DNA from: a virus
DNA length: 23,740 nt
Strand: one strand, 5' to 3'
Virus record (IMG/VR): IMGVR_UViG_3300025698_000058
Location: 1-23,740 of that record
The stretch's first letter is position 1. Each line of letters begins with the position of its first letter. Of the stretch, positions 19,755-23,633 are shown piece after piece. A model generated the notes under the pieces. It was given only the letters and a program-made list of their open reading frames with translations. It was not told where the DNA came from and ran no database searches. The position numbers and the translations under genes are program-made.

Positions 19755-21317
19755 TTATGCTGGTTTGTCAAACGGATCATAACTTTTACGCTCATTAACA
19801 TTCTGACTTCTCTTTGGCATAGGTATAAAGACCGGATTTTGAATTAAAATGCGCCCGATATTCTCAATAAAGTGATCGTCCTTATCAACTGTTTTCTCTT
19901 TCCTATCTTTTCTCTCGGCCATTTTGCCTAACCACTCGTCCCACCTGTAATGTTCAAATTCATAAATGGTATGTTTACAAGTATCAAAAATATATAATTC
20001 AGGCGACTTGATAAATTCCTCTCTATCGTTTAGATTGACTTTCTGATAAGTTAAAGCGTCCTCAATTTTCTTGTCTGACATGGTTCTGCTTTTAGTAGCC
20101 GGTAAATAATTCAAACCATAACTGGCCAATTTCTTTGCCAATGTTTCCTCTTTCGGTTCAGAGTGTTGATCCTCGTTATACGCCGCCGGTTCAAGTAGCT
20201 TCCTGACAATTCTATACTCGCTGTTTTTATCTTTAATCCTTCTGGCCAATTCTTCTGTCCCGCCCTGACTTTTTATCCACAATTCGTCAACGATTATTTT
20301 TGTCCCTTTATCATTAATCGCAATCCAAGTCCCAGCGTCCGGGTTTCTCGGGTGAGTATCAAGCGCATGATAAACACACCAGTTGCGCTGATCAATTTCA
20401 AATGGCCGGATAACATGTATATTTCTACTAAACTGTTTATAACGAATACCAACCAAATGTTGAAACTTACCATAAATACGCGCCTGCTTTTCTTCCTCTG
20501 AATACTCAGCAATCATTCTTTGAATATTATCGTGTTCCAAGTGTCCCCTTATTCCGTGTTGCCGACAAGCGTCCTCAACTTCGGCCTCAATATAAACACG
20601 CTGTCCCTTTGCGGCCAAGTCTTGATCAGGATTAGCAATGATATGATCATAAAGCCAAGCGGCGTATAACGGCGTTTCAGATATAAAAATAATTCCACCC
20701 TTACGCATACGACTGACGGTTGCTTTAAAAATTGCTTCCGGTGGTGGTTCATCAAACCAAGCCCAACCTAATGTAGCACTCTCAAACTCTTTAGTGTCCT
20801 GCTCATAACTCATCACATCAAACTTCCAACCGTTGTCAGTTGTCCACTGGCTCTTATATTGTTTAGACGCCTTTACCCCTTTGTATCTACCTATCGGAAA
20901 CCACTCCTCTAATGTTGGAATTAAGTTTGTCTTTACATTTTCAGGATCAGAAACTATACGGCCTTTTTTAGGAAATGGCCAATCTTTATAAAGCGGGTGA
21001 TTAAAGTATTTATTATCGCTCTCTTTTCCCCAAATAATATGTGCAATTATATTTGCTCCGGCCGCAGTTTTACCCACGCCGTTAGCCGCCGAAAATAAAG
21101 TTATAAAGTTTGGCTTGCCGTTAGCGTTTATCTCCCCAATTTTTGTTATAAATTGTTCACACTTACCGTTAGGCTCATAAAAACGAAACTTCTCACCTTC
21201 AAACCTAAAAATCTTTTCTTCTTTGACCTCTCGTAGTTTAGACAAAACAACTTCCGGCTTTGTATTACCGCATAAGTCTGCTATCTCTTGATCAATTTTA
21301 GTCTTTAGTTTTGCCAT
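19755..21317 (-). CDS. terL: terminase large subunit
   Basis: A 520-residue DNA-packaging motor. The ATPase half has Walker A at about 76-84 (SAANGVGKT) and Walker B at 185-190 (WAWFDE, with D189/E190), and a coupling segment with S213-E214-T215 (FISETP). The nuclease half has the expected acidic residues: D320 (YHALDTHP), D344/E345 (IIVDELW) and the D480-D481-H482 region (DKDDHFIENIGRI). It pumps DNA through the portal and cuts concatemers. Its ATG lies 20 nt inside the end of the upstream deformylase-like gene, so the two are probably translationally coupled. Confidence 0.93.
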   Translation of the reverse strand: MAKLKTKIDQEIADLCGNTKPEVVLSKLREVKEEKIFRFEGEKFRFYEPNGKCEQFITKIGEINANGKPNFITLFSAANGVGKTAAGANIIAHIIWGKESDNKYFNHPLYKDWPFPKKGRIVSDPENVKTNLIPTLEEWFPIGRYKGVKASKQYKSQWTTDNGWKFDVMSYEQDTKEFESATLGWAWFDEPPPEAIFKATVSRMRKGGIIFISETPLYAAWLYDHIIANPDQDLAAKGQRVYIEAEVEDACRQHGIRGHLEHDNIQRMIAEYSEEEKQARIYGKFQHLVGIRYKQFSRNIHVIRPFEIDQRNWCVYHALDTHPRNPDAGTWIAINDKGTKIIVDELWIKSQGGTEELARRIKDKNSEYRIVRKLLEPAAYNEDQHSEPKEETLAKKLASYGLNYLPATKSRTMSDKKIEDALTYQKVNLNDREEFIKSPELYIFDTCKHTIYEFEHYRWDEWLGKMAERKDRKEKTVDKDDHFIENIGRILIQNPVFIPMPKRSQNVNERKSYDPFDKPA

Positions 21318-22134
21318 AAAATATTATAGGCAAGTCATTTTCCCAAGTCCCGTCTTGTCTTTCTTTGCAGGTGCAATATTGTTGTTTACATTTTACACAA
21401 GTAGAGTTTTCGCCCAAATCAATATAAGGTGGATTAAGTGTTTTTTTCTGTGCGTCTATTGACTGGTTCATTATAATATTGTATGCAACCTTTTCCTTTG
21501 TCGGCTTCAACCCGGAAGGGTCAAACCTTTCTTTATCTATTGATGAGCCACCGATTACTGGCTTATCATTACCGATCAACTCCCACCACTTGACCGGAGT
21601 TTCACTTTCAAAATAGATATTCTTTGCCTGTGTTAGATCGTAGCAATGCTGAAATATCTCACTGGCCACACCTTCCAAGTCAACTTTAACAGTTTTTAAA
21701 CCATACCAGCGCGATACTTGATACCTAACTTTGATAAAATTAAACCTCTTTACTCTTTTTGGCCTTCTGAACGGAAAAGACATGCAAGGTTCTTGACATT
21801 CAATCGTGTTCGGAACAACCACACTTTTGCCATTTGATTGAATTACTTTTTTATGCTCTTTGGCTAATATAATTTTAGGGTTGATAATAACTCTGTCCTC
21901 AAACATTTTATACCAATTCATTTTCTTATTATTGGTTACGCACTCCCCAGCAACAACAAAAAAAGACATTGGCGTTTCACTCACTTGACAATGAGCGATC
22001 GCGTATGCCTTGTTATAAAAACCTTTATATTTCCCTTCGTCAATAAAGTTTAAAAGTTCTTTAGCTTCCGCCCTGATTTCCCGATAGCGAGAAACTGGCT
22101 TTGATAACTTATAGTGCATTTTAATAATTTCCAT
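21298..22134 (-). CDS. degenerate peptide-deformylase-like protein with C-terminal cysteine knuckle
   Basis: A 278-residue protein. Three regions line up with deformylase motifs: 43-60 (AYAIAHCQVSETPMSFFV, against G-x-G-LAAPQ, with Q50 kept), INPKI at 85-89, then 114-119 (QEPCMS, against EGCLS, with the metal-ligand Cys117 kept) followed by RPKRVKRFNFIKVRYQV, and 153-167 (LEGVASEIFQHCYDL, against the VFQHExDHL helix). In the last motif H163 is kept, but the catalytic Glu is C164 and the second His ligand is L167. The fold is therefore probably retained while deformylation is probably lost. The C-terminal 80 residues add a CxxC-x4-C-x-C knuckle (C246, C249, C254, C256) that may bind zinc. It lies between the terminase subunits and overlaps terL by 20 nt. 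Confidence 0.6.
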   Translation of the reverse strand: MEIIKMHYKLSKPVSRYREIRAEAKELLNFIDEGKYKGFYNKAYAIAHCQVSETPMSFFVVAGECVTNNKKMNWYKMFEDRVIINPKIILAKEHKKVIQSNGKSVVVPNTIECQEPCMSFPFRRPKRVKRFNFIKVRYQVSRWYGLKTVKVDLEGVASEIFQHCYDLTQAKNIYFESETPVKWWELIGNDKPVIGGSSIDKERFDPSGLKPTKEKVAYNIIMNQSIDAQKKTLNPPYIDLGENSTCVKCKQQYCTCKERQDGTWENDLPIIFYGKTKD

Positions 22135-22420
22135 AGCGATTGTTTTAATTATTTAAAGTTGATTATATTTATAAAAGGTAGCGGTCATTATCATTCCGAC
22201 ACTTGCAGACCATAAGCGAGGAGTAGCTAAAAGGAAAATGAAAATAAAATAAACCTTGTCGGATACCCCTGCACTACCTTAGACCGAGAGGTCTTGTGCT
22301 GGACAGAATTACTTGTCTGTTAATCAAGAACGCTAAGCGTCGCTGTTAGGCCAAAGCTCGATTTACAATACTAAGTAAAATCTGCCCAACGCGAGAACTC
22401 CCGATACTATAATTATACAC
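22135..22420 (-). ncRNA. candidate structured RNA between terS and the deformylase-like gene
   Basis: A 286-nt gap with no ORF but many inverted repeats: a long-range stem CTACCTT/AAGGTAG (22274-22280 with 22175-22181); nested TCCGACA/TGTCGGA (22195-22201 with 22257-22263); TGCAG/CTGCA (22204-22208 with 22269-22273), which would cross the nested stem as a pseudoknot; a perfect 5-bp hairpin AGACC/GGTCT (22281-22294); ACAGA/TCTGT (22303-22320); ACGC/GCGT (22330-22340); and a bulged GATTTAC stem (22360-22382). A perfect TATAAT (22412-22417) faces into it on the minus strand, placing a start near 22405, just where the structure begins. It may be a free RNA or a long 5' leader. Confidence 0.5.
22412..22417 (-). 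promoter_or_regulatory. -10 box of the structured RNA/deformylase-like gene
   Basis: On the minus strand GGTGTATAAT gives a perfect TATAAT with an upstream TG. It lies 4 nt after the terS stop codon, about 280 nt before the next start codon. No good -35 is seen, as at the other extended -10 sites here. Confidence 0.5.
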
Positions 22421-23005
22421 CTAATCTCTTTTTAATAAAAAGTCTTTTAGCTTCTTTTCTAAAGCGGCCAATTCAGCATTTGATAAGTCTTGATACTTTC
22501 GTTTAGTCAATTCAATCTTATCCGGTGCGTAAGCCCCTTTAACTTTATAAGCCATATCAAGCGCGTCCCTTCTACTTTTGGCGTCTGGTGCTTGAAAAAA
22601 AGCAACTTTTCCGATATAGTCGTCAGGTTTTATGTAAATTAAACGACAACCCGGCACGCTTTGAACTATCTTTTTGATTTCTGCGTTAGTTAATTGTCTT
22701 TTTTTCTTGCCTCTGCCAATCTTTGGAAATACAAGATGACTTATCTCGGACGACCTTAACAAGTCCCCGTGAGTTTGATAAATAATCTCATCAGATAAAT
22801 GTTCGGCAATTAGTTCCTGCGCTGTTCTACTTTTTAAAGCCCGACCAGTATCAGCATAACTTTTAGAATATCCAGCGTCAATTTGCGCCTGTCTTATAGA
22901 CTTCGGTTTTTTGACATTCTTTTTCCCTTTTTCTGATAAAGATTTTATAACTCGCTCGGCTCTCTTGTATGTCTTTGTATTCTTATTGTAAGACTTTTTA
23001 TACAT
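22421..23005 (-). CDS. terS: terminase small subunit
   Basis: A 194-residue DNA-recognition subunit. After a basic N-terminus, residues 36-59 form the helix-turn-helix typical of small terminases (SIRQAQIDAGYSKSYADTGR). A beta-containing middle follows (GCRLIYIKPDDYIGKVAFFQ), then RRDALDMAYKVKGAYAPDK (145-163), also seen in small terminases, and a charged C-terminal helix (173-192) fit for oligomerisation. It should bind the packaging site and hand DNA to the large subunit. It is separated from terL by the structured region and the deformylase-like gene, whereas the two subunits are normally adjacent. Confidence 0.85.
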   Translation of the reverse strand: MYKKSYNKNTKTYKRAERVIKSLSEKGKKNVKKPKSIRQAQIDAGYSKSYADTGRALKSRTAQELIAEHLSDEIIYQTHGDLLRSSEISHLVFPKIGRGKKKRQLTNAEIKKIVQSVPGCRLIYIKPDDYIGKVAFFQAPDAKSRRDALDMAYKVKGAYAPDKIELTKRKYQDLSNAELAALEKKLKDFLLKRD

Positions 23006-23063: not shown

Positions 23064-23633
23064 TTATTCTTTCATAAATAATGTAAAACCTCTTGGCGTA
23101 TTAAAATAAACACTCGCCAATGGTAATTCATTTGCTAATTTATGGATCGTCGGGTGTTGCGGTGCAGTGTCATGTAAAGCGATCAGCGTCTTTGATTTCA
23201 ATGCCGGTAATAACTCCATAATCTCTAATCCTCTGATTGATCCCTTCGGCGAACTATCAATGAAAGCAAACTCAACCATATTCTTGCATTGCTTCGCTAA
23301 TTCTAACCCTGTCATTTCTAAACATTGCGCGATTTCAGTTAAACCTTCCTTTTTTATTCTATCATCTACAAACTTAACTCTATCCTCTAATGTTTCGCAC
23401 GCAACTATCTTTCCATAATTATTTTTTTTCAGGGCTTTGGCCATTGCTATTGTAGCGTCGCCCAAATAGGCCCCAGTTTCTATGACAAAACCCGGCTTGA
23501 TCAACCTGATTAGTCCAAATAAAAACTCCGCGACTTCGTCCTCGCTTGACTGCTCGTCGCGCGCTGTCCACATTTCGTCTTTGTCCAGCAGATACGGATT
23601 GCGTCCGTGTGTTAATTCGTGTTCGTTTGGCAT
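23064..23633 (-). CDS. class I SAM-dependent methyltransferase
   Basis: A 189-residue enzyme with a Rossmann-like fold: SAM motif I at about 50-61 (VIETGAYLGDAT), an acidic residue after strand 2 (E80, VACETLEDR), a strand-4 FIDSSPKG segment (124-131), and LHDTAPQHP (153-161), a pattern found in the Methyltransf_24 and cephalosporin-hydroxylase-like groups that act on sugars or small molecules. No DNA-methylase NPPY/DPPY motif is present, so DNA modification is unlikely. The substrate is unknown; together with the glycosyltransferase it could modify virion or surface glycans. It precedes terS by 58 nt. Confidence 0.82.
   Translation of the reverse strand: MPNEHELTHGRNPYLLDKDEMWTARDEQSSEDEVAEFLFGLIRLIKPGFVIETGAYLGDATIAMAKALKKNNYGKIVACETLEDRVKFVDDRIKKEGLTEIAQCLEMTGLELAKQCKNMVEFAFIDSSPKGSIRGLEIMELLPALKSKTLIALHDTAPQHPTIHKLANELPLASVYFNTPRGFTLFMKE

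Follow-up and report, generated by a model that had tools for sequence, protein, structure and literature searches.

A peptide deformylase-like protein, probably non-catalytic and with a conserved C-terminal tail, encoded beside the terminase genes of uncultured phages

The 23,740-nucleotide stretch of viral DNA analysed here (IMG/VR record IMGVR_UViG_3300025698_000058, positions 1 to 23,740, termed the window) carries, between its genes for the small and large terminase subunits (terS and terL), an ORF with the look of a peptide deformylase (PDF) whose active site has been altered. This raises the question of whether the encoded protein is a deformylase at all and, if its catalytic function is gone, whether the gene is decaying or is being kept for another role. 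The features concerned are given in Table 1, and numbers with the prefix L denote contigs, L001 being one with a copy identical to the window protein.

Table 1. Features of the window discussed in the text, with residue numbers referring to the PDF-like protein
Feature	Positions	Strand	Basis
PDF-fold protein gene, 278 aa, probably non-catalytic	21298..22134	minus	ATG-start ORF; Pfam PF01327; model and Foldseek
terL (Terminase_6N)	19755..21317	minus	ORF and profile match; 20-nt overlap with the PDF-like gene
terS-like gene	22421..23005	minus	Group HMM matches the L009 orthologue, itself a Pfam Terminase_2 match
Motif I region AYAIAHCQ (residues 43-50)	21985..22008	minus	Alignment
Motif II EPCMS (residues 115-119)	21778..21792	minus	Alignment
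Motif III QHCYDL (residues 162-167)	21634..21651	minus	Alignment
Tail motif PVKWWELIG (residues 180-188), clade-specific, nearly invariant	21571..21597	minus	Alignment
C-x2-C-x4-C-x-C stretch (residues 246-256)	21367..21399	minus	Sequence; private to this phage

The terS-like gene lies upstream of the PDF-like gene and is separated from it by 286 nt (22135-22420, minus strand) without a minus-strand ORF. The RNA of this interval was predicted to fold better than shuffled sequences (z -2.9), and no match to it was obtained in Rfam and tRNA searches; possible roles are those of a packaging site and of a regulatory leader. Directly upstream of terS, a Methyltransf_24/O-methyltransferase-like gene was identified (23064-23633, minus strand), with a similar gene found near terS on L008 (3879-4478).

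Assignment of the protein to the PDF family was supported by both profile and structure searches, as the original prediction had proposed. A match to Pfam PF01327 (Pep_deformylase) was obtained with an E-value of 1.3e-10 and 41.5 bits, above the curated cut-off of 22.8, and Thermotoga PDF 1lme was matched using phmmer (E=6e-4). The score against the NCBIfam equivalog TIGR00079 was well below the cut-off (21.8 bits vs 103.95), a cut-off also not reached by L011 and L128, both of which have intact catalytic residues. Comparison of the window protein with 50,697 phage records using tblastn gave no match, and the same search from L011 gave mostly weak PDF matches. Residues 1-200 were modelled with AlphaFold2 from 21 family sequences (pLDDT 87, pTM 0.84), and all 50 of the PDB matches listed by Foldseek for this model were PDFs (E about 1e-4 to 3e-6), including those of Thermotoga, phage S-SSM7 and phage Vp16T (5mtc; TM 0.85 by target, rmsd 2.3 Å). 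Five significant matches were found in BFVD, with four named as viral deformylases and one unnamed. A first model of the full-length protein (12 sequences, pLDDT 62) was poor, and none of its Foldseek matches was a PDF; it was discarded once the model from the deeper alignment was available. The C-terminal 90 residues, with the four cysteines described below among them, were of low confidence in the full-length model.

The glutamate of motif III serves as the catalytic acid/base of PDFs. Inspection of the three PDF motifs and the Cys/His/His set of metal ligands (as in PMC5591237) identified departures in each. At motif I, Gln50 is kept and both glycines are gone (AYAIAHCQ vs GxGxAAxQ), placing the region outside the consensus for an active PDF, while at motif II the Glu, Cys117 and Ser are kept with the Gly exchanged for Pro (EPCMS vs EGCxS). 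At motif III, His163 is kept, Cys164 replaces the catalytic Glu and Leu167 replaces the His that is the third metal ligand, breaking the HExxH consensus. These are the two survivals (Gln of motif I, Cys of motif II) and the two losses that had originally been read from the sequence. Sequencing error is a very unlikely cause, since HCYDL recurs in four distinct phages and these come from three or more metagenomes. As the motif III Glu and one metal ligand out of three are missing, the protein would be expected to have lost formyl-group hydrolysis, bearing in mind that activity can be predicted only imperfectly from the PDF motifs (PMC12690207).

About 25 family members, most of them encoded next to terminase genes, were identified in uncultured phages by scans that started from the protein, from alignments or from terL. 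The HCYDL form of motif III was found to be shared by the window, L002, L003 and L004, so that the survey of relatives returned the same substitutions; L008 possesses HGYDH, and L009, L109 and L113 have HExxH together with a Gln to Leu exchange in motif I. The Gln, Cys and HExxH are all kept in L011 (binned with a Verrucomicrobiota MAG), L128, L130, L124, L150, L151, L152, L154, L155, L157, L159, L170, L172, L173 and L174. Cys117 and His163 are kept in every relative. No second PDF gene was found in the phage records searched, these records being fragments.

A group of these proteins is set apart by a C-terminal tail, PVKWWELIG followed by GGTS or similar, and was found to hold together as a clade on the tree (97/98). 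The motif reads PFKWWELIG in L109 and L113 and PIEWWTLAG in the partial L110; in all eight full-length clade members it is constant except for one V/F position. The same eight retain the Gln in five cases, the Glu in four and the second His in five, and by these counts the catalytic residues vary more than the tail does. KWWELIG was absent outside the clade among the proteins of the fetched loci, and five other contigs with a DNA pattern for KWWELIG had neither a PDF nor a terL match.

Within the tail clade, eight of the nine informative members have lost the Gln, the Glu, or both the Glu and the His from the catalytic set, L011 keeping all. Outside it, only L126 (Gln to Glu, Glu to Cys) and L158 (Gln to Tyr) are altered. 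Parsimony on the tree indicated that the tail was gained once and the second His lost once, with the Glu lost at least two times and the Gln at least three; the association of tail with catalytic loss looks strong by count, comprises few independent events and is given with no claim of significance. As L011 combines the tail with the full catalytic set, the tail was probably acquired before catalytic residues were lost, the branching order inside the clade being weakly supported. Catalytic loss can also be recent, as L126 and the intact L170 are supported sisters. The L126 protein (704-1399) has HCVEH in motif III, in which the Glu to Cys exchange arose independently and the second His is kept, which makes a Cys/His/Cys/His metal site possible from its sequence; its C-terminal extension is unlike that of the window protein and contains a CxxC.

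The HCYDL subclade was examined for signs of decay. As most pairwise dS values were saturated, dN/dS was read from close pairs only, and YN00 gave 0.17, 0.12 and 0.15 among L002, L003 and L004 (three close pairs with fairly high dS, one sequence being partial), compared to about 0.07-0.09 for terL. Furthermore, the ratio of PDF to terL divergence, computed from log identities on small samples, was 1.05-1.57 for full-length HCYDL pairs vs 1.59-2.12 for pairs of the intact L124, L151 and L154. The HCYDL proteins are therefore no faster relative to terL than intact ones, showing no sign of relaxed constraint after catalytic loss, and the gene in this subclade is probably not decaying and is still under selection.

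The order terS-PDF-terL, originally noted for the window, was identified on nine contigs (the window, L002, L003, L008, L009, L011, L109, L128 and L150), with two extra genes between the PDF-like gene and terL on L008. One of the genes found there encodes a CxxCxxCC metal-chelating protein (PF03692; 6668-7054), and a different small CxxC ORF lies between terS and the PDF-like gene on L002 and L003. PDF-terL was found near a contig end on L004, L110 and L113. Members of the outer clade have the PDF gene 5' of terS-terL (L124, L130, L151, L154, L158, L170 and L173) or upstream of terL (L126, L155 and L174). No PDF gene was found between terS and terL on L111, the terL of which shares 65% identity with the L011 one, or in several other terL relatives. 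As some close terminase relatives do without it, the PDF-like gene is considered accessory and not an obligate part of packaging; a packaging partner for its product is possible, though not an obligate one. Co-production with the packaging motor had been suggested from the 20-nt overlap with terL. This overlap is present in the window, but the arrangement varies among relatives, with overlaps of 1-20 nt (L009, L011 and L150), gaps of 2-5 nt (L109, L113 and L128), a gap of 87 nt (L002, L003 and L004) and the extra genes of L008. Co-production with the motor is therefore not supported by the overlap as a general feature of the family.

Some terL genes of the group were themselves found to be interrupted. 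An 845-residue terL ORF on L151 (6998-9535) encloses a LAGLIDADG domain and is possibly the host of an intein. Two ORFs, adjacent or overlapping, make up terL on L128 (4450-5980), L134 (4402-5999) and L135 (2180-3686), as would result from a frameshift, an insertion or an assembly error.

The C-terminal four-cysteine knuckle of the original description is indeed present in the window protein (Cys246, Cys249, Cys254 and Cys256). It is not a feature of the family, as comparison of this segment with other ORFs of the fetched loci gave no significant match except on the identical contig L001.

Taken together, we consider the window protein to be probably a pseudoenzyme of the viral PDF family that has turned into a non-catalytic binding protein. 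A PDF with the Gln, Cys and HExxH is encoded beside the terminase genes in a broad set of uncultured phages. The C-terminal tail marks one clade, and inside this clade catalytic residues have been lost in at least two ways, by Gln to Leu or by Glu to Gly or Cys (the Cys accompanied by His to Leu), with the fold and tail meanwhile remaining under purifying selection. An accessory viral PDF would thus have acquired the tail and would afterwards have given up catalysis. In the most likely arrangement, the conserved tail would dock on a partner protein, with the PDF cleft either binding (formyl-)Met N-termini without cutting them or serving only as a scaffold; candidate partners are a nascent chain or the ribosome, the host PDF, and a virion or terminase protein. 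A more specific form of this proposal, which we put forward tentatively, is that of a phage-specific class of non-catalytic PDFs in which the WW tail came first and made activity dispensable, giving a late-infection binder that is made with the packaging genes and targets formylated N-termini or a packaging or ribosome partner.

Retention of a weak or altered metallo-hydrolase activity appears improbable. A metal could still be held, as Cys117 and His163 are never lost, and such an enzyme might coordinate it through Cys117, His163, Cys164 and a further ligand such as water, another base taking the place of the Glu. The independent Glu to Cys exchange of L126 is compatible with this, as is the existence of bacteria with only non-canonical PDFs (PMC12690207). 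However, the Glu of motif III is the catalytic residue, Leu167 removes one of the ligands (as assigned in PMC5591237), and near motif I no other conserved His or Cys is available, with His48 and Cys49 of the window protein being Asn and Met in L003. An equally low probability is given to the gene being an accessory PDF in decay, retained merely through its position inside the terminase operon. That L111 and other terL relatives have no such gene between terS and terL, and that catalytic residues were lost several times, would fit with decay, but the ORFs are intact in the members, dN/dS is 0.12-0.17, no acceleration relative to terL is seen and the tail is nearly invariant.

Two further explanations are special cases of the pseudoenzyme proposal. 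An accessory role in packaging, in which the tail would bind either TerL or TerS with the PDF fold as a scaffold, is rather unlikely, its probability overlapping with that of the general proposal. In the tail clade the gene has a fixed place next to terS and terL, on the same strand and in an apparent operon, which speaks for such a role. Against this, L111 and other close relatives have terS-terL without a PDF-like gene, tail-less PDFs of the outer clade occupy similar places, making the location older than the tail, and gene order could reflect mere co-regulation. Pseudoenzymes that regulate active paralogues are known in general, and the window protein shares its fold with the host enzyme, so that regulation of the host PDF, as a pseudoenzyme partner or a competitor at the ribosome, may be conceived. 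This is very unlikely, as the C-terminal helix with which E. coli PDF binds the ribosome has no counterpart in the window protein and the tail is unlike that helix.

For a pseudoenzyme of this kind, the novelty lies not in an inactive PDF, as such proteins are already known (type 3), but in a phage lineage in which motif III has been lost under purifying selection alongside a nearly invariant tail. At one genomic site, with the gene constrained, a series can be seen from the intact enzyme, to the enzyme with a tail, to tailed proteins that have lost the Gln, the Glu, or the Glu and His. This offers a natural test system for the conversion of an enzyme fold into a binding protein, with PVKWWELIG as a handle for finding the partner. 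It also means that the motifs should be checked before a PDF annotation in a viral metagenome is taken to indicate a deformylase gene.

It has been suggested that phage PDFs are all active, with early sets keeping every catalytic residue (PMC5591237); judged by its residues, the present lineage is a counter-example. Four annotated phage PDFs that were checked (DLP6, 023Pt_psg01, Vibrio D93 and Melnitz-3) all keep HExxH and the other catalytic residues, and none lies in a terS-terL block (in 023Pt_psg01, terS is about 0.9 kb from the PDF on the other strand and terL 4.5 kb away), which agrees with the original expectation that phage deformylases retain their motifs and lie outside the packaging module. 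The Vp16 PDF (5mtc; PMC5591237) resembles the window protein in fold (TM 0.85), in being phage-encoded and in lacking the ribosome-binding C-terminal helix, but keeps its catalytic residues and is active, whereas the window protein is without the Glu and a metal-ligand His, is tailed and adjoins the terminase. Type 4 marine viral PDFs and that of Synechococcus phage S-SSM7 (PDB 3uwb) are likewise viral, most with short C-termini, and unlike the window protein they keep the motifs. The type 3 PDFs (of archaea and trypanosomatids, and the accessory ones of S. aureus and S. pneumoniae) share with it homology to PDFs and substituted catalytic motifs; they are reported to be weakly active or inactive (PMC12690207, PMC5591237). 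Their substitutions fall in motifs I and II (PMC12690207), whereas the window protein has lost motif III itself, in phages, and with a new conserved tail.
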